A stretch of DNA of 54,175 nucleotides from Lachnospiraceae bacterium (GTDB taxonomy: Bacteria; Bacillota; Clostridia; Lachnospirales; Lachnospiraceae). The notes under the pieces are model-generated. The model saw only the letters and a program-made list of their open reading frames with translations, had not been told where the DNA came from and ran no database searches. The stretch is from assembly GCA_024680815.1 (NCBI GenBank), contig JAILBQ010000099.1, positions 1 to 54,175 of the forward strand. The letters are read 5' to 3'. The position numbers and the translations under genes were made by a program. This document shows, piece after piece, positions 31,777-45,031 of this stretch (positions are counted from its first letter, which is position 1; each line of letters opens with the position of its first letter).

Positions 31777-34700
31777 TTATTTCCACCCTCCGTCGATGAG
31801 TACGCCCTGGTAGGAGGCCTTTTTCCCGGTTATCTTAAAGGTCAGTGTCTTCGTTCCCGCGAGGGTACCTGTTCCGTGGAGATTCACCTTCGCGGTGCCC
31901 TTCTTTGTATTATTTGAATAGTTCACCACCTCAAAATCCGTGCCGTAAAGGAGGGAGGCATTGCCGCTCTTAAGGATACCGCTTAGGTCATTGGCGCTCA
32001 AAGTGACCGGATTTCCGGTGTAGGGCTGGTCGGCGATATTTTTTACCTTCTTCGTCTTTGCCAGGTTCGAGGATGCCGTCCCGAGATACCGGAAGGTCAC
32101 GGTCACCGTATCCTTATAGGCCCCGGCTCCGGTAACCCTTACGGTAACGCTTCCCGCGCTCTCGTCCCCGTTGATCTCGGTTTTCGAATCCACGGTAAAG
32201 TCCTTGCCGGCCTTAAGCTTTTTCCCATCAATATCGACAGCCGTAACGGAAGGCTTTTTAAGCTTGCTCTTTGAGGTAAACTGGTCAGCTGCCGTCACGT
32301 TTATATTACCGATACTCTGGGGCTCGACAGCGAAGTTAAGCTTTACCGAACCCTTGTAGTTCCCCTTGCCCTTAACGGTTACATATGCGCTCTCGGATCC
32401 GTTGGTGACCGCCTTGTTCTTCGAGTAAGAAAGCGTGTAATCCTTTCCGGGGCGGAGCTTCGTATCCCCGTCCTTCACACTCACCTCAGGCTTCGCCCCG
32501 CCCTTTGCGACAGGCACTTTCTTTGAATAGCTGTAGGTAAAGTCAGAGCCCGAACCGGCCTCCTTAAGCTCCCTCTTGCCGCTTATCTTAAAGGTAGCGG
32601 TCTTCGTCCCCGCGTAGCCGCCGGAATTGGCGCTCAAGGCTTCGAAAGTGATTCTGGCCGTGCCCGGAAGCACGTTGTCGCAGCAGATCATCCTGTAGGC
32701 ATTATCCGGTACCGTATTTCCGGCCAGCTTAAGGGTTGCTTTGGGAACAATACCCTCTCCGGTATAGGCATAGCTCTTTTTATCGAAGCTCACCTTTGCC
32801 TTTGAAAGAAGCTTGTTTTTATCTTTTACTACGGTTATCCTCGCGGTAGTCTCTCCGGTGAAATTGCTGTTTTTTGCCTTTATTGTGGCGGTATATTCCC
32901 CTGCCTCCTTTACGGTTCTGTCATAGGTTACGGTGAAATCCTTAGCTGAAGCCGCCTTTCCCGTTGAAGCCCAGGTAAGGACCGGTACCGGCTTCTGGGT
33001 CTTCTTCGTATAAGCCACTCCCACGTCATGAGCCAGGATGTCCTTTCCAAGGATAGCAGGGGTGATATCAAAGCCTGCCGTCTGCTCCTTATTGTCCTTA
33101 TAGTTGCCCTTAAACTTTACTGTGGCTGTGGCCTTACCTGCTTCCTTATTATTCTTAAAGCTTAAGCTGTAGTCCGTACCCTCGGCAAGACAGATAAGAC
33201 CGTCATAGACATGAAGCTCCGGCTTTATCTTTGAGCCCGTATATGTGTAAGAGACATCCAGTCCGCCTATCCAGAGCTTTGACTCCACGGTCTCCTTGCC
33301 GCTTTCCGGATCTGTTATGATCTTTGAGATCTCTTCTCCGCCTATGGTGACGGTCTCTTCAACGATATTCCCTTTTTCATCCGTCTTTTCATCGAGCACC
33401 GGAACGGCGTTGCCGCTTAAGTCCGCCACATCCTTTCTCAATTCCTCCAGATCCCGGTCCTTCTTATCCGGAAGGCAGGGGATGTCCGTTCTGTCCACGG
33501 TGGCTTCATGGCACCAGCAGCACTCATAGGTGGTAACCCCCATCTGTAATACGGTCGCGGGAATTTTTTCTGTTCCGTTTTTATAATCAAAGTAATGATT
33601 GTCAGGATCCTTTGGAGTCTCCGTTCCTTTCCTGATCATACTGCCGCATTCCAGGCACCAGGTATCCCCGGAGTAACCGTTTGCAGAACAGGTTCCCCGC
33701 CTTACGTCCCGAAGCTCCGTACGGGAATGGCTGCAGTCATTGACTGTCAAAGCCGCATGAATTATATAGTCTTTGTAATTCTTTGCATTCTTAACGCTTA
33801 TTACAACATCTGCCTTTTTGTTCACAAGGCTTCTGTCATCCTTAAAGCTCCAGGTAAGCATTGTTCCATTGAGGGCCGCATTACCGCTTAAGGCCCCATT
33901 GGGATCGGACACTGTTTTGATCGCGGTGTCCCCTCCCTCAGCAACATAGTCTTTGAGCTCCAGTATGCCGTCGGTGCCGTATCTGGCCCTGCCTTCGGCC
34001 TGCATATTTTCATGGTCAGCCTTATATATGGTAACCCTGGTGCTTACCGGACCCTCCGGCTTTTTTATTACATAATTTGCGCTGTCTGCTCCTGAAAGCT
34101 TCATTTCTCCGGAAAGAGTGACCGAGTCATACTCTCCTGTGTCAGACCCGCTTAAGGTGCCCTTAAGACCCGTGGCATCCACATAAACTTTTTCATCATT
34201 CATGATCCCGTCAAGGCTCACGGAGTTTATCGCAACAACAGACGATCTGTCATAGGGTCTTGAAACGGCGTCCGCGCTTACGACCGTAAGAGGCGCCTCT
34301 TTGACCTTAAAACTCTTTGTCACGGATCCGCTGTATATCTTCCTGCCTTTAAGCAAAGCGGTATAGCTTCCCACAGCATGAGGAATTTCGTTGAATGAAG
34401 CCGTATAGTATGCAGGATCAACAACATCGCCATTCATGTCCCTTACCTTAAGCTCAGTCTGGTCGCTGCCGTTATAGGTAAGATCCTCTACCGTAAGATC
34501 GGAAGGGATGTTCTCCCTCGGCCTTTCAACAAAGACCACGGTTTTATTCTGCGGATCAAAGCTTTTAATGTAATCCTCTTCAGTACTCGAAAAATGCTCT
34601 GCGTCCTTATCCGTAACCTCATAGATGCCGTTGCCGCTTGCGATCACCGCCCCGTCTTTGGTAAAGTTTGAGGAAACGCCGATCATTCCGGTAAGCTGGC

Positions 34701-37041
34701 CGGATACGGTGATGACGGGAGGCTTTACATAGTCACCAACAGGGAGGGGCGAACTTTCACCTTCCATCGTAGCGTCCTTATCCTCAAAAAGGAAAACATT
34801 GGAAGGTACGGTTCCGTTTTTAAGGGTATTGCCCGTGACATAAGCTCCGTCCGTAACGGTAAAGGTGCCTAATGAAGCCTCGAATCCTGCAGATATTTCA
34901 AGATTCGAGGTTACCGCACCGCCGCCGGCATCGGCTTTATTTCCGGTGAGCTTTCCCCCTCTTAGGATGACATCGCCGAAGTAATTGTAAATACCGCCGC
35001 CCCTTAGAGCTTCGTTCCCTTCGATGCTTCCGCCTCTTAAGTCAAAAATGCTATCCGGAGTTGCACCTCCAAATACACCCATTGACATCGGAATGTATAT
35101 ACCTCCTCCGTCACTCCTGGCCCTGTTGTCCTTAATGGAGCCACCCTCCATAATGAAGGTTCCTCTTGACCACACTCCTCCGCCCGATTCGGCTTCATTT
35201 CCTTCGATACACGCTTCCCCGCTCATGATAAAAGTACTTTTATCGCTTCCTGAATAAGCGATGCCGCCTCCATTGGATTCAGAAGAAGTTGCTTTGTTAT
35301 TGCGGATGCTTCCGCCCTCAAGCTGAAGATCCCCGTTTTGTACAGCCACTCCTCCGATCTTCTCACCCTCGTTGAAGCATATCTGAACATTATCTTTTAT
35401 GATAAGATCTTCGGCCACAATACCGCCAAACTTACCCTTATTGCCGGATACGACCGCATTATCTTTTATGGTAAGCTGACCATCTCCGATATAAATCCCG
35501 CCGGTAGAGGCATCTTCCTTCGCTTCGTTGCCTTCGACCCTGGCATGATCTTCTAAATTCAGGCTGCTCCCCTTAGAAACATAAATTCCTCCAACGCTTC
35601 CGGATCCTTCAGCCGTATTTCCGACCACGGCAGCGCGGCCGCTCATGGCAAGCTGACCTTTATTGATATAAACGCCGCCTGCAGCGAATTTTTTATTACC
35701 TGCCTTATTATTTGCGACCAGAGCTGAACCCGACATATTGAGTTTACCATCAGAAATAAATATACCGCCGCCGGTTTCTTTGGCAGAGTTTTCGGCAATG
35801 CTTCCGCCATTCATCGTGAAGGTGCCGCCATCATAAACATATATGCCACCTCCACACTTATTTGCGGAGTTTTCGGAAATATATCCGCCATTCATCGTGA
35901 AGAAGCAGTTCTCACCAACATACACACCGCCGCCATCAGTATTTGCATTGTTACCGTAGATCACAGCGTTCCCGTTCATGTTAAAGTTGACGGGTTTACC
36001 ATAGGAACAAAGGTATACACCGCCGCTGTAGTAATTATTTGCTTTGTTCCCGCTGATCACAGCGTTCCCGCTCATGTTAAAGGTGGCGGATTTTTCACCG
36101 GAAACAATCCACACACCGCCGCCATAATCTGCGGTGTTTCCGGAAATGCTTCCGCCTGTCATTGTGAAGGTTATATCTGATAAATTACTACTAAAATACA
36201 CACCGCCGCCATTGCCGGTGCCGACTTCATTTTTGAAAATGTTGCCGCCTGTCATAGTGAAGCTGCCGTTATTTACATGCACTCCGCCACCATAGTGGTT
36301 AGTGTCGGATCTGTTACTGTAAATATTTCCGCCTGACATATTGAAGGTTCCGTAGTTACCAACGTGTACACCGCCGCCATTCGATGCAGAATTACCATAA
36401 ATGCATCCGCCCTTCAGGTTGAAGGTTCCGCCATCAACGTGCACACCGCCGCCGGAATTATCGGTTCCCTTGCCACCGGTTATACCGCCTTCAGGGCCGC
36501 CGCTGTTGTCTTCTATCGTCAGAGCAGCTCCGTTCGTAACCTTGATAACACTGCCGGAACCGGCAGACAGCCTTATCGTGTGGCCGTTAAGATCAATTGT
36601 GAAATTGTTAACAGAGCCATCCAGTACCCATGTGCTCCCAAGCGTTACATCCTGATTCAATCTATAGCTGCCAGGATCAGATGGCATCGAGTCTGAACCG
36701 GTCCATTCAGTATAACCTGGAGACCCGTCAGGAACTACCGCCTCTGCCTCTTCTGCGATATCCTCTGCTGCCGGAACATCGGATACTTCCTCCGTGACCG
36801 GGCTGTCCGCAGGAACAGACTCTTCTTCCGCCACAGGCTCTTCCTCAGTCTTCTCTGCTTCAACCACATCCCGGGATCCGCCGGTTTCATCAGTCATCTC
36901 CGCATCTTCCGCCACAACCTCAGGTTCAGGCTCAGGCGTCACCTCCGCCCCATAGGCCAAACCCGGCACGGAATTTACCACCAGAGCCGACAGCAATGCC
37001 GCCAGTATCATTTTCCTCAGCTTCTCATTTAAACTTTTCAT
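31777..37041 (-). CDS. Giant secreted beta-helix protein with MBG/YDG and Ig-like repeats
   Basis: A 1754-residue exported protein. Residues 1-32 are a signal peptide ending GLAYGA, then an acidic Glu/Pro-rich linker to ~110. Residues ~130-790 carry some 20 rungs of the type GGGVxVxxGTFxMxGG..GN, as in right-handed parallel beta-helices and polymorphic adhesins. Near ~870-1070 lie MBG- and YDG-type domains (YNGSDQTEL; RPYDRSS). From ~1100 come a Cys/His motif (CSHSRTEL, CLECG, CCWCH) and five or so ~85-residue Ig-like repeats (YTYTGSKIKP ... KGNYKD). No LPXTG signal, S-layer or choline-binding motif was seen. AGGAG precedes the ATG. Likely adhesin or surface-associated; substrate unknown. Shares its C-terminal ~650 residues with the subtilase at 46843. 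Confidence 0.85.
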   Translation of the reverse strand: MKSLNEKLRKMILAALLSALVVNSVPGLAYGAEVTPEPEPEVVAEDAEMTDETGGSRDVVEAEKTEEEPVAEEESVPADSPVTEEVSDVPAAEDIAEEAEAVVPDGSPGYTEWTGSDSMPSDPGSYRLNQDVTLGSTWVLDGSVNNFTIDLNGHTIRLSAGSGSVIKVTNGAALTIEDNSGGPEGGITGGKGTDNSGGGVHVDGGTFNLKGGCIYGNSASNGGGVHVGNYGTFNMSGGNIYSNRSDTNHYGGGVHVNNGSFTMTGGNIFKNEVGTGNGGGVYFSSNLSDITFTMTGGSISGNTADYGGGVWIVSGEKSATFNMSGNAVISGNKANNYYSGGVYLCSYGKPVNFNMNGNAVIYGNNANTDGGGVYVGENCFFTMNGGYISENSANKCGGGIYVYDGGTFTMNGGSIAENSAKETGGGIFISDGKLNMSGSALVANNKAGNKKFAAGGVYINKGQLAMSGRAAVVGNTAEGSGSVGGIYVSKGSSLNLEDHARVEGNEAKEDASTGGIYIGDGQLTIKDNAVVSGNKGKFGGIVAEDLIIKDNVQICFNEGEKIGGVAVQNGDLQLEGGSIRNNKATSSESNGGGIAYSGSDKSTFIMSGEACIEGNEAESGGGVWSRGTFIMEGGSIKDNRARSDGGGIYIPMSMGVFGGATPDSIFDLRGGSIEGNEALRGGGIYNYFGDVILRGGKLTGNKADAGGGAVTSNLEISAGFEASLGTFTVTDGAYVTGNTLKNGTVPSNVFLFEDKDATMEGESSPLPVGDYVKPPVITVSGQLTGMIGVSSNFTKDGAVIASGNGIYEVTDKDAEHFSSTEEDYIKSFDPQNKTVVFVERPRENIPSDLTVEDLTYNGSDQTELKVRDMNGDVVDPAYYTASFNEIPHAVGSYTALLKGRKIYSGSVTKSFKVKEAPLTVVSADAVSRPYDRSSVVAINSVSLDGIMNDEKVYVDATGLKGTLSGSDTGEYDSVTLSGEMKLSGADSANYVIKKPEGPVSTRVTIYKADHENMQAEGRARYGTDGILELKDYVAEGGDTAIKTVSDPNGALSGNAALNGTMLTWSFKDDRSLVNKKADVVISVKNAKNYKDYIIHAALTVNDCSHSRTELRDVRRGTCSANGYSGDTWCLECGSMIRKGTETPKDPDNHYFDYKNGTEKIPATVLQMGVTTYECCWCHEATVDRTDIPCLPDKKDRDLEELRKDVADLSGNAVPVLDEKTDEKGNIVEETVTIGGEEISKIITDPESGKETVESKLWIGGLDVSYTYTGSKIKPELHVYDGLICLAEGTDYSLSFKNNKEAGKATATVKFKGNYKDNKEQTAGFDITPAILGKDILAHDVGVAYTKKTQKPVPVLTWASTGKAASAKDFTVTYDRTVKEAGEYTATIKAKNSNFTGETTARITVVKDKNKLLSKAKVSFDKKSYAYTGEGIVPKATLKLAGNTVPDNAYRMICCDNVLPGTARITFEALSANSGGYAGTKTATFKISGKRELKEAGSGSDFTYSYSKKVPVAKGGAKPEVSVKDGDTKLRPGKDYTLSYSKNKAVTNGSESAYVTVKGKGNYKGSVKLNFAVEPQSIGNINVTAADQFTSKSKLKKPSVTAVDIDGKKLKAGKDFTVDSKTEINGDESAGSVTVRVTGAGAYKDTVTVTFRYLGTASSNLAKTKKVKNIADQPYTGNPVTLSANDLSGILKSGNASLLYGTDFEVVNYSNNTKKGTAKVNLHGTGTLAGTKTLTFKITGKKASYQGVLIDGGWK

Positions 37042-37113: not shown

Positions 37114-37908
37114 TCAGGGCATAAACCGCAGTATGGCCTCCAGAACTCCGCCGCCCACAGACAGGGCCTTGTCGGAAACCGTGGTAAAATCAGCTTCTTC
37201 CCCTCTGGGATCGATGTCTCCGCACTTAAAGCCGGCTGTAACATAAATTCCCTCCGGCAGAAGTCCCCGGAGCATCCCGTCAATCGTGGCATAAAGCGGC
37301 GCATCTCCTGTTCTTGCCACCTCTTCGCCCTTACGCACAATATCCCCTATTTCTTTAAGAGGCCGGAACACCCCTTCCGCAGGGGAGCGCAGTACCCGCT
37401 CAGCTCCAAAGCCCGAAATAATTCCAGGGATCCCGGTATTTGGAATCGCGCTGCCCTTCAATATAACCCTTCCCAGCGTATGACCCCGCTTTGTTTCAAT
37501 AACCGCGTGGCAGTCCGCTCCTGCCGTAAAGCCCGGACCGACTCCTATAACAACAGGTGCGTCCGTAATTAAGGTTCCCAGATTTTTCTTTGCAAGGATT
37601 GCGTCCACCACAACGGCCGGCTTAAGAGCTTTGATAATTTCCTTTCCGGGATCCGGAACCACGGCTATAAAGCCCTTGCGGATAAGCTCAATAGCCTCTT
37701 TCGCATTTTCCGCCCGGAAGGCACGCACCTCCTCCACCTGGCACTCCCCTTTTCTTATTGCCTCCGAAAAAGCCACGCTCCGCCGTATGGCAGTGGGTTC
37801 GGGAAGATCTGTCATGACAATCATAAAGCCTGAGTGAAACAGTCTTAAAGCGATTCCGGAGGCCAGATCCCCGGCTCCCCGGATTAAAACACAAGTTTTT
37901 TCTTTCAT
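37114..37908 (-). CDS. yqeB: Selenium-dependent molybdenum hydroxylase system protein YqeB
   Basis: A ~264-residue protein of the YqeB/EF2563 family, found almost only in genomes with labile-selenium molybdenum hydroxylases. Motifs: IRGAGDLASGIALRLFHSG (Rossmann-like), VPDPGKE, VVVDAILAKKNLGT, GPGFTAGADCHAVIET and RGHTLGRVI. The ATG at 37908 is preferred to an upstream in-frame start because AAGGA precedes it by about 5 bases. The exact step in cofactor selenation is unknown. Divergent from the aldo/keto reductase. Confidence 0.88.
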   Translation of the reverse strand: MKEKTCVLIRGAGDLASGIALRLFHSGFMIVMTDLPEPTAIRRSVAFSEAIRKGECQVEEVRAFRAENAKEAIELIRKGFIAVVPDPGKEIIKALKPAVVVDAILAKKNLGTLITDAPVVIGVGPGFTAGADCHAVIETKRGHTLGRVILKGSAIPNTGIPGIISGFGAERVLRSPAEGVFRPLKEIGDIVRKGEEVARTGDAPLYATIDGMLRGLLPEGIYVTAGFKCGDIDPRGEEADFTTVSDKALSVGGGVLEAILRFMP

Positions 37909-38015
37909 GATGTCCTTATTAAAATAGTTTTCAATGTGAAAAAAGCATAGCTTCAATCGAAAAAAAAATCAACAGATTTTCGGTTTATTTATGGTTATAT
38001 CAGCTGGCGGAATGA

Positions 38016-39098: not shown

Positions 39099-41777
39099 AT
39101 GAACACTCTTAAAACAAACAACACAGACACCATGCTGGGAAAGCTGTTTTTTAAAATGCTTCCCGTCCAGATTCTCATAGCTGCCATAGGCTCGATCAAT
39201 TCCATTGTTGACGGCGTTGTGGCCGGCCGCTTCATAGACGCCCAAACCGTGGGTGTCATCGGTCTTTATTACGCCATGGTCTATATATATTCCGCAGTGG
39301 GCGGGGTGCTGCTGGGCGGCACCAGCGTGCTCTGCGGCAAATATATCGGACGGGGCGAGCACGATAAAACCGAGGGTGTTTTTTCCCTGAATCTCACGAT
39401 CATCTTTCTTTTCGGGGCTGTATTCACCCTGGCGGGACTTGTCTTTCCGGAAAAGCTGGCCCTTCTTCTCGGTGTCACCGAAGTCCTTAAGGAGAGTCTC
39501 GTTTCATATATCATCGGCTATTCCTTCGGAATACTCCCCCTGCTCCTGTCTCAGCAGCTGGCTTTGTTTCTGCAGCTTGAGGGACAAAGCCTGCGCAGCT
39601 ACGTCGGCCTGGCCTTTATGACCCTCTCCAATATCTTTCTTGATATACTTCTGGTTTCGATCCTTAAAATGGGGGCTTTCGGTCTTGCCCTCGCAACCAC
39701 CTTAAGCAACACAATCTATTTAATCATTCTGGCTTCGTATTATCTGACAAAACGGGCCCAGCTTCGCTACGGCATCAGAAAAATACGCTGGCAGGACACC
39801 CCTGACCTTGTGAAAACCGGAATCCCCGGAGCCTTGCTGGTATTGTGCATAGCGTTGAGATGGCTCGTAGTGAACCGTGTTATTCTCGACTGCGCCGGAA
39901 ACGACGGACTTTCCGCGATGTCCGCCTTTAACATGGTAAGCGGTCTCTATGTCGCCTACTGTCTCGGAAACGGCTCGGTGATACGGATGCTGGTAAGCGT
40001 TTTTATCGGGGAGGAGGATCGCTCTTCCATAAAAAAGATAATAAAGATTGTCCTTACAAAGGGATTGCTCCTTTCCTGCTTTGTGGCTGCGGCGCTTTTC
40101 TTCCTTGCCCCGGTTCTTACGGGCTTCTTTTTCCCGGACAGGACTTCCAACGTCTATCACCTGGGTTATCAGATTTTTGCCATCTACGCCCTTATCATTC
40201 CGCCCATCCTGATCTGCCAGGTATTCACCAACTATCTCCAGGCCATGGGGCACAGGGCTTTTGTAAATTTCCAGTCTGTCTTTGACGGCTTCTTCTCAGT
40301 GGTTGTTCCCTCTCTCATCCTTGCCCCCTTCATCGGCGCAATGGGCGTCTGGCTCGCAAACGTGGTAGGAGTATTTCTCACCATTCTCACAGTGCCCGTG
40401 TACTGCGTCATCTACTGGAGGCATATTCCGAAAACCGTTGATGAATGTATGTTTTTTAAGCCTGACTTCGGTATCCCCGAAGAGGATTCCCTGGCTCTTT
40501 CCATTTATGCTCCCGGCGAAGCCACTTCTGCTTCCGAAGAAATCAGCCGTTTCTGCGAAAAACATTCCATGGGAAAAAAGGCCTCCTATTTTTCGGCCCT
40601 CTGTCTCGAAGAAATGGCCGTAAATGTTCTGGAGCACGGGTTTAACGGCGGCAAGAAGAACAACCTGAGCGCGAGGATTATTTATTCCGGCGGAACCGTC
40701 ATGCTCCGTCTCAAGGATGACTGCAAGCCCTTTAATCCCGGGGAAATAGCCTCCATCGTTGCCCCCGAAGACCCTTATGAAAACATAGGGATACGCATGG
40801 TCTACAAAATCGCGGACGATGTAAATTATCAGAACATGCTGGGGCTTAACGTTCTTACCATCAGCATAAAGGAAGAGAATCTGCTGTCCATGGAAAGCAT
40901 TGACTTCCTCCTGGAAAAAACGCTTAAGAAAAAGAATCCCGAACTTCATAAAAACTTCAGTAATATTGCCGTTACGTCTCAAAAGCTTCTGACCCGGTAT
41001 CTGGCCATGTTTTCCGGCTATCCCGATCATTCCGATCTGCACAGCTTAACGGTCATAGACTTCAGCAGCCGCCTTATCGGACAGAAGCAGATTGAAAAGC
41101 TGAACGCGGATGAAATATATATTCTCCTGGCCGCCTGCTATCTTCATGATGTGGGAATGGGCATCGGCGAAAAGGACTATGAAGAGTTCGGCGAAGTGTT
41201 GGGAAGGAAGAGCTATTTTGAAGAGCATCCCTCCGACACGAAGAAACAGTTCATCAGGGCATATCATCATGAATTCAGCGGACTGTTCATTGAAAAGTAT
41301 GCCTCCTTTTTTGAGTTTCCCTCCCCGGAGCATGCTTTTGCGATAAAGCAGGTGGCAAGAGGTCACAGAAAAACCGATCTTAACGACGAAAAGGAATATC
41401 CGGTCTCCTACGCCCTTCCTGACGGAAATACCGTCTGCCTTCCCTATCTTGCCTCGATTGTGCGTCTTGCCGATGAGATAGATGTGGTTTCTTTCAGGAA
41501 CTCCGCTCTGCTCTATGATCCCGACAGCCTCGAATTTGAAACCGATATCATCTATGCCCGCAGAACCGAGGCGGTAAAGTCGATGAAAATCACAAAAGAG
41601 TCTTTCATCCTTTTCGCACAGACAAAGGACGAAGACATCCGGGAAGCCATTGAGAAGATGGTTGTGAAGATGCAGGAAACTCTGGATTACTGCAGAGATA
41701 TCGTGAACGCAAAGACGGACTTTAAGATAACCCAGAAAAAGGTGGAACTGAATTATACTTCCGATACCGATGAATGA
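39099..41777 (+). CDS. MATE transporter fused to RsbW-like ATPase and HD domain
   Basis: An 892-residue fusion. Residues 1-445 are a MATE antiporter with about 12 membrane segments (NSIVDGVVAGRF, GALLVLCIALRW). Residues ~455-600 look like a GHKL ATPase of the anti-sigma RsbW/SpoIIAB type: LCLEEMAVNVLEHGF (N box), LKDDCKPFNPGE near 540 and NIGIRMVYKIAD. Residues ~620-860 carry an HD phosphohydrolase pattern: H near 653, CYLHDVGMG (H683-D684), HHEFSG, ARGHRKTD and LADEID (near 792). Transport, kinase-like ATP binding and HD hydrolysis in one chain suggest signal-coupled export. The stop overlaps the yqeC start by 8 bp. AKR-yqeC neighbours give no substrate. Confidence 0.85.
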   Translation: MNTLKTNNTDTMLGKLFFKMLPVQILIAAIGSINSIVDGVVAGRFIDAQTVGVIGLYYAMVYIYSAVGGVLLGGTSVLCGKYIGRGEHDKTEGVFSLNLTIIFLFGAVFTLAGLVFPEKLALLLGVTEVLKESLVSYIIGYSFGILPLLLSQQLALFLQLEGQSLRSYVGLAFMTLSNIFLDILLVSILKMGAFGLALATTLSNTIYLIILASYYLTKRAQLRYGIRKIRWQDTPDLVKTGIPGALLVLCIALRWLVVNRVILDCAGNDGLSAMSAFNMVSGLYVAYCLGNGSVIRMLVSVFIGEEDRSSIKKIIKIVLTKGLLLSCFVAAALFFLAPVLTGFFFPDRTSNVYHLGYQIFAIYALIIPPILICQVFTNYLQAMGHRAFVNFQSVFDGFFSVVVPSLILAPFIGAMGVWLANVVGVFLTILTVPVYCVIYWRHIPKTVDECMFFKPDFGIPEEDSLALSIYAPGEATSASEEISRFCEKHSMGKKASYFSALCLEEMAVNVLEHGFNGGKKNNLSARIIYSGGTVMLRLKDDCKPFNPGEIASIVAPEDPYENIGIRMVYKIADDVNYQNMLGLNVLTISIKEENLLSMESIDFLLEKTLKKKNPELHKNFSNIAVTSQKLLTRYLAMFSGYPDHSDLHSLTVIDFSSRLIGQKQIEKLNADEIYILLAACYLHDVGMGIGEKDYEEFGEVLGRKSYFEEHPSDTKKQFIRAYHHEFSGLFIEKYASFFEFPSPEHAFAIKQVARGHRKTDLNDEKEYPVSYALPDGNTVCLPYLASIVRLADEIDVVSFRNSALLYDPDSLEFETDIIYARRTEAVKSMKITKESFILFAQTKDEDIREAIEKMVVKMQETLDYCRDIVNAKTDFKITQKKVELNYTSDTDE

Positions 41778-42444
41778 TTTACTTAAAATGCTTTCAATCT
41801 CTCCGGGAATTACCTCCGTCATCGGAAGCGGGGGTAAAACCACTCTGCTGCGCTTTCTGGCCGGAGAGCTTCCCGGCACGGTACTGCTATGTACCTCCAC
41901 CCATATCTTTCCTTTTGAGGAATATCCACTTATCATAAGCGAACCGGATGAAAAAGCCGACATGCTTCTGCCCCGTCTGCGTGAAAGCTTCCGACAAAGC
42001 CGCGTGCTCTGCCTCGGCCGCAGAGGAGAAAACGGAAAGCTTGTCTCCCCTCCGGTTCCTTTTACAGCTCTCCTATCTTCCGCGGATTATATCCTTGTGG
42101 AAGCCGACGGCTCCGCCGGACTTCCGATGAAGGCCCACGCGGAATACGAACCGGTGATTCCCGAAGGAAATTCCCGCACCATTCTCGTTGCAGGAGCCTC
42201 CGCCTTCTTCCGGAAAATTTCCTCCGTCTGCCACCGCCCGGAACTTTTCTCAGCTAAAACCGGCACCGGGGCAGAAGATATTCTTTCTCCCGCTCTTGCC
42301 GCCCGGCTCATAAACACCGAGAATTTATCGGACTTTGTATTCTTAAACCAGGCCGACTCCCTTTCAGCTCCTGAAGCCGCGGACACATTTCTTAAGCTGA
42401 TAAACGTTCCCGGGACGGCGGGAACGCTACAGCCCCGTTCCTGA
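41770..42444 (+). CDS. yqeC: Putative selenium-dependent hydroxylase accessory protein YqeC
   Basis: A 224-residue P-loop protein with VIGSGGKTTLLRFLA near residue 18, CTSTHIFP and LVEADGSAGLPMKAH, the family signature of YqeC. It is found with YqeB in SDMH gene sets and is thought to act in selenium cofactor formation; mechanism unknown. It starts inside the MATE fusion gene (8-bp overlap), so is translationally coupled, and ends 4 bp from the convergent EamA gene. The C-terminus is slightly short for the family. Confidence 0.88.
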   Translation: MNDLLKMLSISPGITSVIGSGGKTTLLRFLAGELPGTVLLCTSTHIFPFEEYPLIISEPDEKADMLLPRLRESFRQSRVLCLGRRGENGKLVSPPVPFTALLSSADYILVEADGSAGLPMKAHAEYEPVIPEGNSRTILVAGASAFFRKISSVCHRPELFSAKTGTGAEDILSPALAARLINTENLSDFVFLNQADSLSAPEAADTFLKLINVPGTAGTLQPRS

Positions 42445-44737: not shown

Positions 44738-45031
44738 ATGTCAGATCATAAATTAAATGATGATGAACTGAAGGATGTAAACGGAGGAGTGACTATCGCA
44801 AACAACGCGCTCTACAGCCGTGGCAAAACCGAAGTCCAGACAACGAACGCGCTGTATGACAAGAATAAAACGCAGGTGTACGCAACGAACGCGCTCAAGA
44901 CCGACAGAACCGTGCACCAGAGCAAGCTTCTTGAGGAAGAAGCTGCAAAGTCAAAGGTTAAAAATCCACAGGGTACGGCGAACGTTGATCCCTTCGGAAA
45001 CAGCTTTTCCTCCGGTTACGGCCGGGCATGA
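44738..45031 (+). CDS. Double-glycine-leader peptide with 14-residue repeat
   Basis: A 97-residue protein. Residues 1-17 resemble the leader of peptides exported by C39-type ABC transporters: LNDDELKDVNGG ends in GG at 16-17. Residues 23-60 carry a 14-residue tandem unit, NALYSRGKTEVQTT, NALYDKNKTQVYAT and a degraded NALKTDRTVHQ, with starts at 44804, 44846 and 44888. The tail is Lys/Glu-rich, then Gly/Ser-rich (SFSSGYGRA). No Cys, so no thioether or disulfide. Strong GAAAGGAG site and promoter. No transporter, modifying enzyme or immunity gene is nearby. It could be a bacteriocin- or RiPP-like precursor or a signalling peptide; the GG leader call is by eye. Confidence 0.7.
   Translation: MSDHKLNDDELKDVNGGVTIANNALYSRGKTEVQTTNALYDKNKTQVYATNALKTDRTVHQSKLLEEEAAKSKVKNPQGTANVDPFGNSFSSGYGRA

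Follow-up and report, generated by a model that had tools for sequence, protein, structure and literature searches.

A MATE transporter domain, an RsbW-type ATPase and an HD-CE domain in one protein of Lachnospiraceae: a candidate membrane-tethered partner-switching module

The described systems closest to the gene reported here are the RsbW/SpoIIAB modules, which include a STAS antagonist and a SpoIIE/RsbU-type PP2C phosphatase. As a motif rule, RsbW and SpoIIAB carry Glu and Asn in the N box and Asp in the G1 box of the ATPase. In the SiaABCD and HptB-HsbA-HsbD systems of Pseudomonas, a partner-switch protein controls a second-messenger enzyme: SiaC-SiaD (PMC8457831) and HsbA-HsbD (PMC5085249) are precedents for STAS-like proteins in this role. 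The gene in question lies on contig JAILBQ010000099.1 of a gut bacterium of the Lachnospiraceae (assembly GCA_024680815.1; the window, i.e. the whole stretch analysed, comprises 54,175 nucleotides). It encodes a MATE transporter domain, an RsbW-type GHKL ATPase and an HD-CE domain in a single chain. The occurrence of fused and neighbouring-gene versions of these domains, with STAS genes nearby in some of them, suggests a little-known membrane signalling switch. The protein is tentatively read, at slightly less than an even chance, as a membrane-tethered partner-switching module in which HD-CE is the output enzyme of the switch.

With the RsbW/SpoIIAB modules the window protein shares the HATPase_c_2 domain, the N-box E-x3-N and the G1 Asp, and in some relatives STAS genes stand beside the HD-CE or MATE-ATPase genes. 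It differs in its tethering to MATE, in a Cys replacing the G1 Gly, in the presence of HD-CE in the same chain and in the lack of an adjacent STAS or PP2C gene. The control of a second-messenger enzyme by a partner-switch protein is proposed to be common to the window protein and the Pseudomonas systems, whose output is a GGDEF cyclase in contrast to the putative HD hydrolase considered here. To our knowledge, the kinase of neither Pseudomonas system is a transporter fusion. Two-domain MATE-HATPase_c_2 proteins of Lachnospiraceae and other Clostridia are homologous to residues 1–594 (identity up to 55%); in these, HD-CE is not in the same chain and is encoded by the next gene in some cases. 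Proteins combining HD-CE with HATPase_c_3 also pair HD-CE with a GHKL-fold ATPase, but HD-CE is N-terminal, the ATPase is Hsp90-like and MATE is unmatched in the five that were scanned. The C-terminal HD domain of PPX/GppA and the HD-GYP domains have the HD fold and the HD metal-ligand pattern in common with HD-CE, whereas the window protein has no Pfam match to the actin-like PPX/GppA catalytic domains, no GYP motif and no HDxGK lysine. Among the open-access publications matched by literature searches, no title dealt with HD-CE, with MATE fused to HATPase or with MATE in partner switching, which is no proof of absence; in their accessible portions, PMC2887360 does not contain the word MATE and PMC7159879 does not contain "HD-CE".

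The coding sequence begins with ATG and runs through 892 codons in a single frame free of internal stops. The initial annotation had placed all three domains in this frame, and the Pfam models MatE (65.9 bits, cut-off 24.9), HATPase_c_2 (39.0 bits, cut-off 27.4) and HD-CE (120.3 bits, cut-off 27) bear this out. The full-length AlphaFold2 model (pLDDT 82.4, pTM 0.68) displays a many-helix membrane part, a mixed α/β ATPase domain and a mostly helical HD domain; model confidence is below 50 in places in the N-box and lid stretches of the ATPase.

The MATE part scores 96.3 bits with the NCBIfam MATE model TIGR00797, which is under the cut-off of that model (147.4). Its PDB sequence matches are PfMATE (3vvn) and DinF-BH (4lz6), and Foldseek aligns the full model to the MATE structure 3wbn (E 8.8e-13); the N-terminal part groups with PfMATE-type transporters. 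Asp38 and Asp182 align to residues 41 and 184 of PfMATE, both aspartates with a role in that protein. Of the 24 fused proteins that cover the position of Asp38, 22 have Asp there (Asn in locus L064, Gly in L084), and Asp182 is kept in at least 90% of the 25 fused proteins. Profile, fold and PfMATE-type acidic residues together place the domain, a candidate transporter, in the MATE family.

The ATPase motifs named in the initial annotation, LCLEEMAVNVLEHGF (residues 501–515) and DDCKPFNP (540–547), are both present. The residues expected to bind ATP (E505, N509 and D540) are conserved in all 25 fused proteins, and their equivalents occur in 13 of 13 complete MATE-ATPases encoded by a separate, adjacent gene. 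With Cys in place of the G1 glycine, the domain may work like an RsbW and is a candidate kinase. A kinase-type ATPase acting on a partner, as first suggested, is backed by the domain calls and indirectly by the gene context of relatives.

In the HD-CE part, the residues expected to bind metal (H644, H648, H683, D684, H723, H756 and D792) are invariant in all 82 aligned HD-CE domains, and the H...HD...D ligand pattern of HD phosphohydrolases is present throughout. H683-D684 and the late D792 had been recognized before; the "H653-like" first histidine proposed with them has to be replaced, since residue 653 is Ile and the series of metal histidines begins with H644 and H648. An AlphaFold2 model of residues 595–892 (pLDDT 87.7, pTM 0.89) is nearest to PPX/GppA in Foldseek (best E 3.3e-4, query TM-score up to 0.41), while HD-GYP 4r8z (E 0.054), PDE2A and SAMHD1 are all found at E >0.05. 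A PDB sequence search with the HD part gave nothing usable (best match a coiled-coil chimera at E 0.049, and weak PDE matches). On a fair reading of the alignment, HD-CE is probably a metallo-phosphohydrolase, perhaps binuclear, with a substrate other than that of HD-GYP. Turnover of a signal by this domain, as put forward initially, is plausible. Ten long HD-CE proteins (>800 aa, class search, window protein excluded) were found, and the five of these that were scanned consist of HD-CE followed by the Hsp90-like HATPase_c_3 (in L158 just under the curated cut-off). The presence of HD-CE beside GHKL-fold ATPases in two different arrangements makes a functional link of both domains more likely.

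The three-domain architecture recurs in relatives. A scan of a one-genome-per-species collection with the HD-CE alignment yielded 79 named HD-CE loci, taken from the best 80 of 116. In 24 of the 79, HD-CE is in the same frame as MATE and ATPase, with 52–59% identity to the window protein; these include the Butyrivibrio isolates AC2005 (L061) and CB08 (L069). Of 48 genomes of the genus, 13 contain HD-CE, which in 6 is part of a three-domain frame of 887–912 codons; several contigs occur both among the named and among the genus loci, and the two counts are therefore not independent. In the family, all three domains are matched at E 1e-60 in 2 of 299 genomes, one of them the own genome, a number that may miss some fusions because only the best three candidates per genome were scored. 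HD-CE of any kind is present in 13 of 391 genomes of the class and in none of 14 controls. Recurrence in many contigs, isolates included, shows that the fusion is not an accident of chance or assembly, and misassembly is ruled out. A phage origin was rejected as well, as no relative was found among the viral contigs scanned for HD. The fusion is a genuine and rare architecture with its centre in Lachnospiraceae and other gut Clostridia (taxonomy as in the sequence records).

In 16 of the 79 loci, MATE-ATPase and HD-CE are encoded by adjoining genes on the same strand (L086, L087, L088, L090, L091, L092, L098, L100, L108, L113, L117, L122, L128, L137, L138 and L139; the pairs of L088, L122 and L139 are truncated by contig ends). 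The MATE-ATPase gene leads in 12 pairs and the HD-CE gene in 4, and several pairs overlap by a few bases. In a tree of 82 HD-CE rows, all 25 fused rows lie inside one group of 30 (SH-aLRT 84, quick method only). Five changes of the fused label are required on the tree, three of them forced by well-supported branches (shuffled mean 21.7). The adjacent label changes 12 times and clusters no better than chance (92 of 500 shuffles equally low), with L122 and L139 labelled "other" because their MATE-ATPase neighbour was found later. Fused and adjacent loci taken together are spread over the tree. This is most simply read as a gene pair, either old or formed repeatedly, in which fusion took place once or a few times. 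In L064 and L071 a second, stand-alone HD-CE gene directly follows the fused gene. MATE and anti-sigma ATPase domains had been regarded as normally separate, which does not hold here: these bacteria frequently have two-domain MATE-ATPase proteins, and the own genome contains two more by similarity, one with a HATPase_c_2 match. The MATE-ATPase fusion alone is ordinary, and the rare step is the addition of HD-CE.

STAS genes were located with a profile built from ten neighbouring genes, all of which retain a Ser-Ser-(Ala/Ser)-Gly-Leu stretch, the region that is phosphorylated in SpoIIAA-type proteins. STAS proteins are small and are the classic substrates of RsbW kinases. For 17 of the 79 HD-CE genes, a STAS gene lies no more than 100 bp away on the same strand. 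Two of these loci also carry a MATE-ATPase gene, in the order MATE-ATPase / HD-CE / STAS in L086 and MATE-ATPase (a fragment at the contig end) / HD-CE / STAS-APH in L139. L093 and the fused locus L084 have a STAS gene directly beside HD-CE on the opposite strand, and STAS genes lie farther away in L064, L088 and L113. The own genome has four STAS genes in 2.86 Mb, on contigs C16, C122, C124 and C123 (the last a STAS-APH gene). A PP2C gene beside HD-CE was seen in none of the 79 loci, and the scanned neighbours of the window gene include no SpoIIE match in Pfam. Further arrangements around HD-CE comprise a row of FHA-GGDEF, HD-CE and STAS genes with overlapping ends (L127, 5081-7160), a fusion of HD_4 with an APH kinase domain directly upstream of HD-CE (L133, 3622-5097) and, 3.8 kb upstream of the HD-CE gene of the MATE-ATPase / HD-CE pair in L113, an open reading frame cut by the contig start (1-2158) that matches the ATPase query and the PP2C profile and is followed by a STAS gene.

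Fusions of STAS to an APH-type kinase domain adjoin HD-CE in L139 and L084. By sequence likeness, contig C123 of the own genome encodes one such protein, and relatives are present in 37 of 48 genus genomes at E 1e-15, some matching the APH part only. We know of no function assigned to STAS-APH proteins. STAS-APH-like genes occur in 12 of 13 HD-CE genomes and in 18 of the other 35 in the genus (Fisher p = 0.017; read by hand, uncorrected for relatedness and with the partial matches of G017 and G061 scored as lacking). This co-occurrence is suggestive only.

A second context is provided by 28 two-domain MATE-ATPase loci without HD-CE, picked from the matches (27 from the genus, one from another family of the order). 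Genes for STAS and a SpoIIE-type PP2C phosphatase lie in the stretch read of seven loci, which ties some MATE-fused ATPases to partner switching; a STAS gene is present in eight of the 28, the eighth being L165 with a STAS-containing gene of 399 aa. The PP2C genes of L036 (own genome, contig C124) and L035 are confirmed by Pfam. L035 also contains a GH3-family gene. The N-box Asn is kept in all 25 fused proteins, in 13 of 13 complete adjacent ones and in 18 of 21 other two-domain proteins; these counts exclude L086b, the second MATE-ATPase of L086 (beside a second STAS gene), in which the Asn is Tyr. The ATPases linked to HD-CE appear equipped for catalysis, in contrast to most of those linked to PP2C, and the MATE-ATPases of L036 and L035 may be pseudokinases that only bind.

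For the window protein we infer kinase activity, a STAS partner, catalysis by HD-CE and the following direction of signalling. The MATE domain would act as a transporter or ligand sensor, and its ligand or transport state would be relayed to the RsbW-type ATPase. The ATPase would bind ATP and either phosphorylate or reversibly sequester a STAS-domain partner encoded elsewhere in the genome. HD-CE, as a metal-dependent phosphohydrolase or phosphodiesterase, would be switched by the free versus the phosphorylated partner, modelled on the control of diguanylate cyclases by SiaC-SiaD and HsbA-HsbD. Such a module would connect partner-switching signal transduction with a family of transporters known chiefly as exporters of drugs and lipids. 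The gene context also provides a clue to what the named domain HD-CE does, and the fused and separate versions with STAS nearby offer residues 447–892 together with a STAS protein as a simple soluble system for HD-CE hydrolysis.

Several observations weigh against this partner-switching module. The usual G1 Gly is Cys (C542), invariant in all 25 fused proteins. The 50 Foldseek rows listed for the full model are all transporters, and a PDB sequence search with the ATPase domain gave no usable match. Among the seven MATE-ATPases that sit with STAS and PP2C genes, six have lost the N-box Asn, and the C124 ATPase of the own genome is missed by HATPase_c_2 at E 0.001; the ATPase in the clearest modules may therefore not be a kinase. 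At 20 of the 28 two-domain loci, the stretch read has neither STAS nor PP2C. The STAS linkage of HD-CE reflects few independent events, since 13 of the 17 cases belong to one HD-CE clade. A scan of the window with the STAS profile found no STAS gene beside its own gene, same-strand STAS neighbours occur exclusively at stand-alone HD-CE genes, and of the 24 fused loci, L084 alone adjoins a STAS gene, which lies on the opposite strand.

The lack of STAS beside the fused gene at 23 of 24 fused loci, together with the largely conserved D38 and D182, would also suit a transporter that needs no STAS partner and is under the control of the nucleotide-sensing domains in its own cytoplasmic part. This is rather unlikely, as it leaves the STAS genes beside stand-alone HD-CE and the STAS/PP2C modules unexplained.

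Alternatively, HD-CE may be a phosphodiesterase of cyclic dinucleotides. The iron ligands of the HD-GYP protein PmGH are E185, H189, H221, D222, H250, H276, H277 and D305, and its HDxGK lysine is required (PMC4159591). By order and spacing, HD-CE offers candidates for seven of these eight ligand positions, with H644 taking the place of E185; R757 is the counterpart of H277 and the HDxGK Lys is an invariant Met (M687). A GGDEF gene lies within 30 bp upstream of HD-CE in L078, L093 and L127, 78 bp downstream in L161 and anywhere in the locus in 8 of 79. Diguanylate cyclases are abundant in such bacteria, so the close linkage (3 of 79) may be chance, and it was considered insufficient as a basis for a c-di-GMP claim. 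HD-GYP 4r8z is listed by Foldseek, but the top fold matches are to PPX/GppA, and the missing GYP motif argues in the same direction. A cyclic-dinucleotide phosphodiesterase is unlikely.

PP2C and HD-CE look complementary: the former accompanies STAS in a quarter of the MATE-ATPase loci without HD-CE (7 of 28) and is not seen beside HD-CE, yet STAS is. On this ground HD-CE has been considered as the phosphatase of a bifunctional switch, which would dephosphorylate the STAS protein phosphorylated by the ATPase in place of a SpoIIE-type PP2C. Against this, we know of no HD-domain protein phosphatase, and the usual substrates of HD enzymes are nucleotides. Most ATPases of the PP2C modules are degenerate, so the two contexts may not be equivalent, and the majority of MATE-ATPase loci with neither STAS nor PP2C does not fit. 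PP2C and HD-CE can also coexist, as PP2C and STAS genes lie 2–4.3 kb from HD-CE in L064 and L113 (2 of 79), and some PP2C genes may have been missed with a profile from two sequences and short flanks at many loci. Such a switch is quite unlikely. Its fullest form, one membrane protein acting as transporter, Ser/Thr switch kinase and opposing HD phosphatase that displaces PP2C, with the ligand setting STAS phosphorylation, is distinctly improbable.

A defence or conflict effector, with the MATE fusion as the membrane version of an HD-CE family fused to Hsp90-like ATPases (5 of 5 long proteins scanned) and with neighbours of the class-level loci L157 and L163 that look defence-like by their first residues, is very unlikely, given only a weak partial PADLOC match (RT_UG24, E 6.4e-6, 49 of 1036 model positions) and two more at E 0.016–0.024, housekeeping-like neighbours of the fused genes (again by first residues), no relative in the viral contigs and a different ATPase type and domain order.

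Table 1. Coordinates of the three-domain gene, its parts, the overlapping neighbour and features of related loci.
Feature	Position	Strand	Basis or remark
Three-domain CDS, MATE + RsbW-type ATPase + HD-CE, 892 aa	39099..41777	+	ORF, Pfam, AlphaFold2
MATE transporter domain, residues 1-446	39099..40436	+	Pfam MatE, PDB sequence and fold matches
RsbW/SpoIIAB-type GHKL ATPase domain, residues 475-589	40521..40865	+	HATPase_c_2 PF13581
N box E505-x3-N509	40611..40625	+	E505, N509 invariant in 25/25 fused proteins
G1 box D540-D541-C542-K-P-F545	40716..40733	+	D540, D541, C542, F545 invariant in 25/25 fused proteins
Joint ATPase/HD-CE, residues 590-604	40866..40910	+	Approximate start point of stand-alone HD-CE genes of relatives
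HD-CE domain, residues 638-868	41010..41702	+	PF24391; AlphaFold2
Predicted metal site H644, H648, H683-D684, H723, H756, D792	41028..41474	+	Sequence alignment only
yqeC, overlapping neighbour, outside any conserved module	41770..42444	+	TIGR03172
MATE-ATPase with STAS and SpoIIE-type phosphatase genes, N box without Asn	L036 8728-14312; L035 7712-13045		
STAS-APH fusions	L139 1286-2461; L084 6939-8117		Pfam
STAS-APH fusion	L146 6843-7940		Sequence likeness

The start of yqeC lies within the final codons of the three-domain gene, with an overlap of 8 bases. The selenium connection was rejected, as tblastn (E 1e-5, flanks of up to 6 kb) matched yqeC in none of 85 related loci, among which six are repeats of others; the overlap is a local matter. 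Together with yqeB (37114-37956, minus strand), yqeC belongs to selenium-dependent molybdenum cofactor maturation, and the two genes flank an aldo-keto reductase gene and the three-domain gene. Further downstream, an open reading frame of 97 aa (44738-45031, plus strand) has a leader-like start (KLNDDELKDVNGG) followed by NALY-like repeat units and looks like a double-glycine peptide precursor. On the other side, the 1754-aa protein encoded at 31777-37041 (minus strand) resembles a large cell-surface protein in its probable signal peptide and its many NMSGG/FTMTGG-like repeats.

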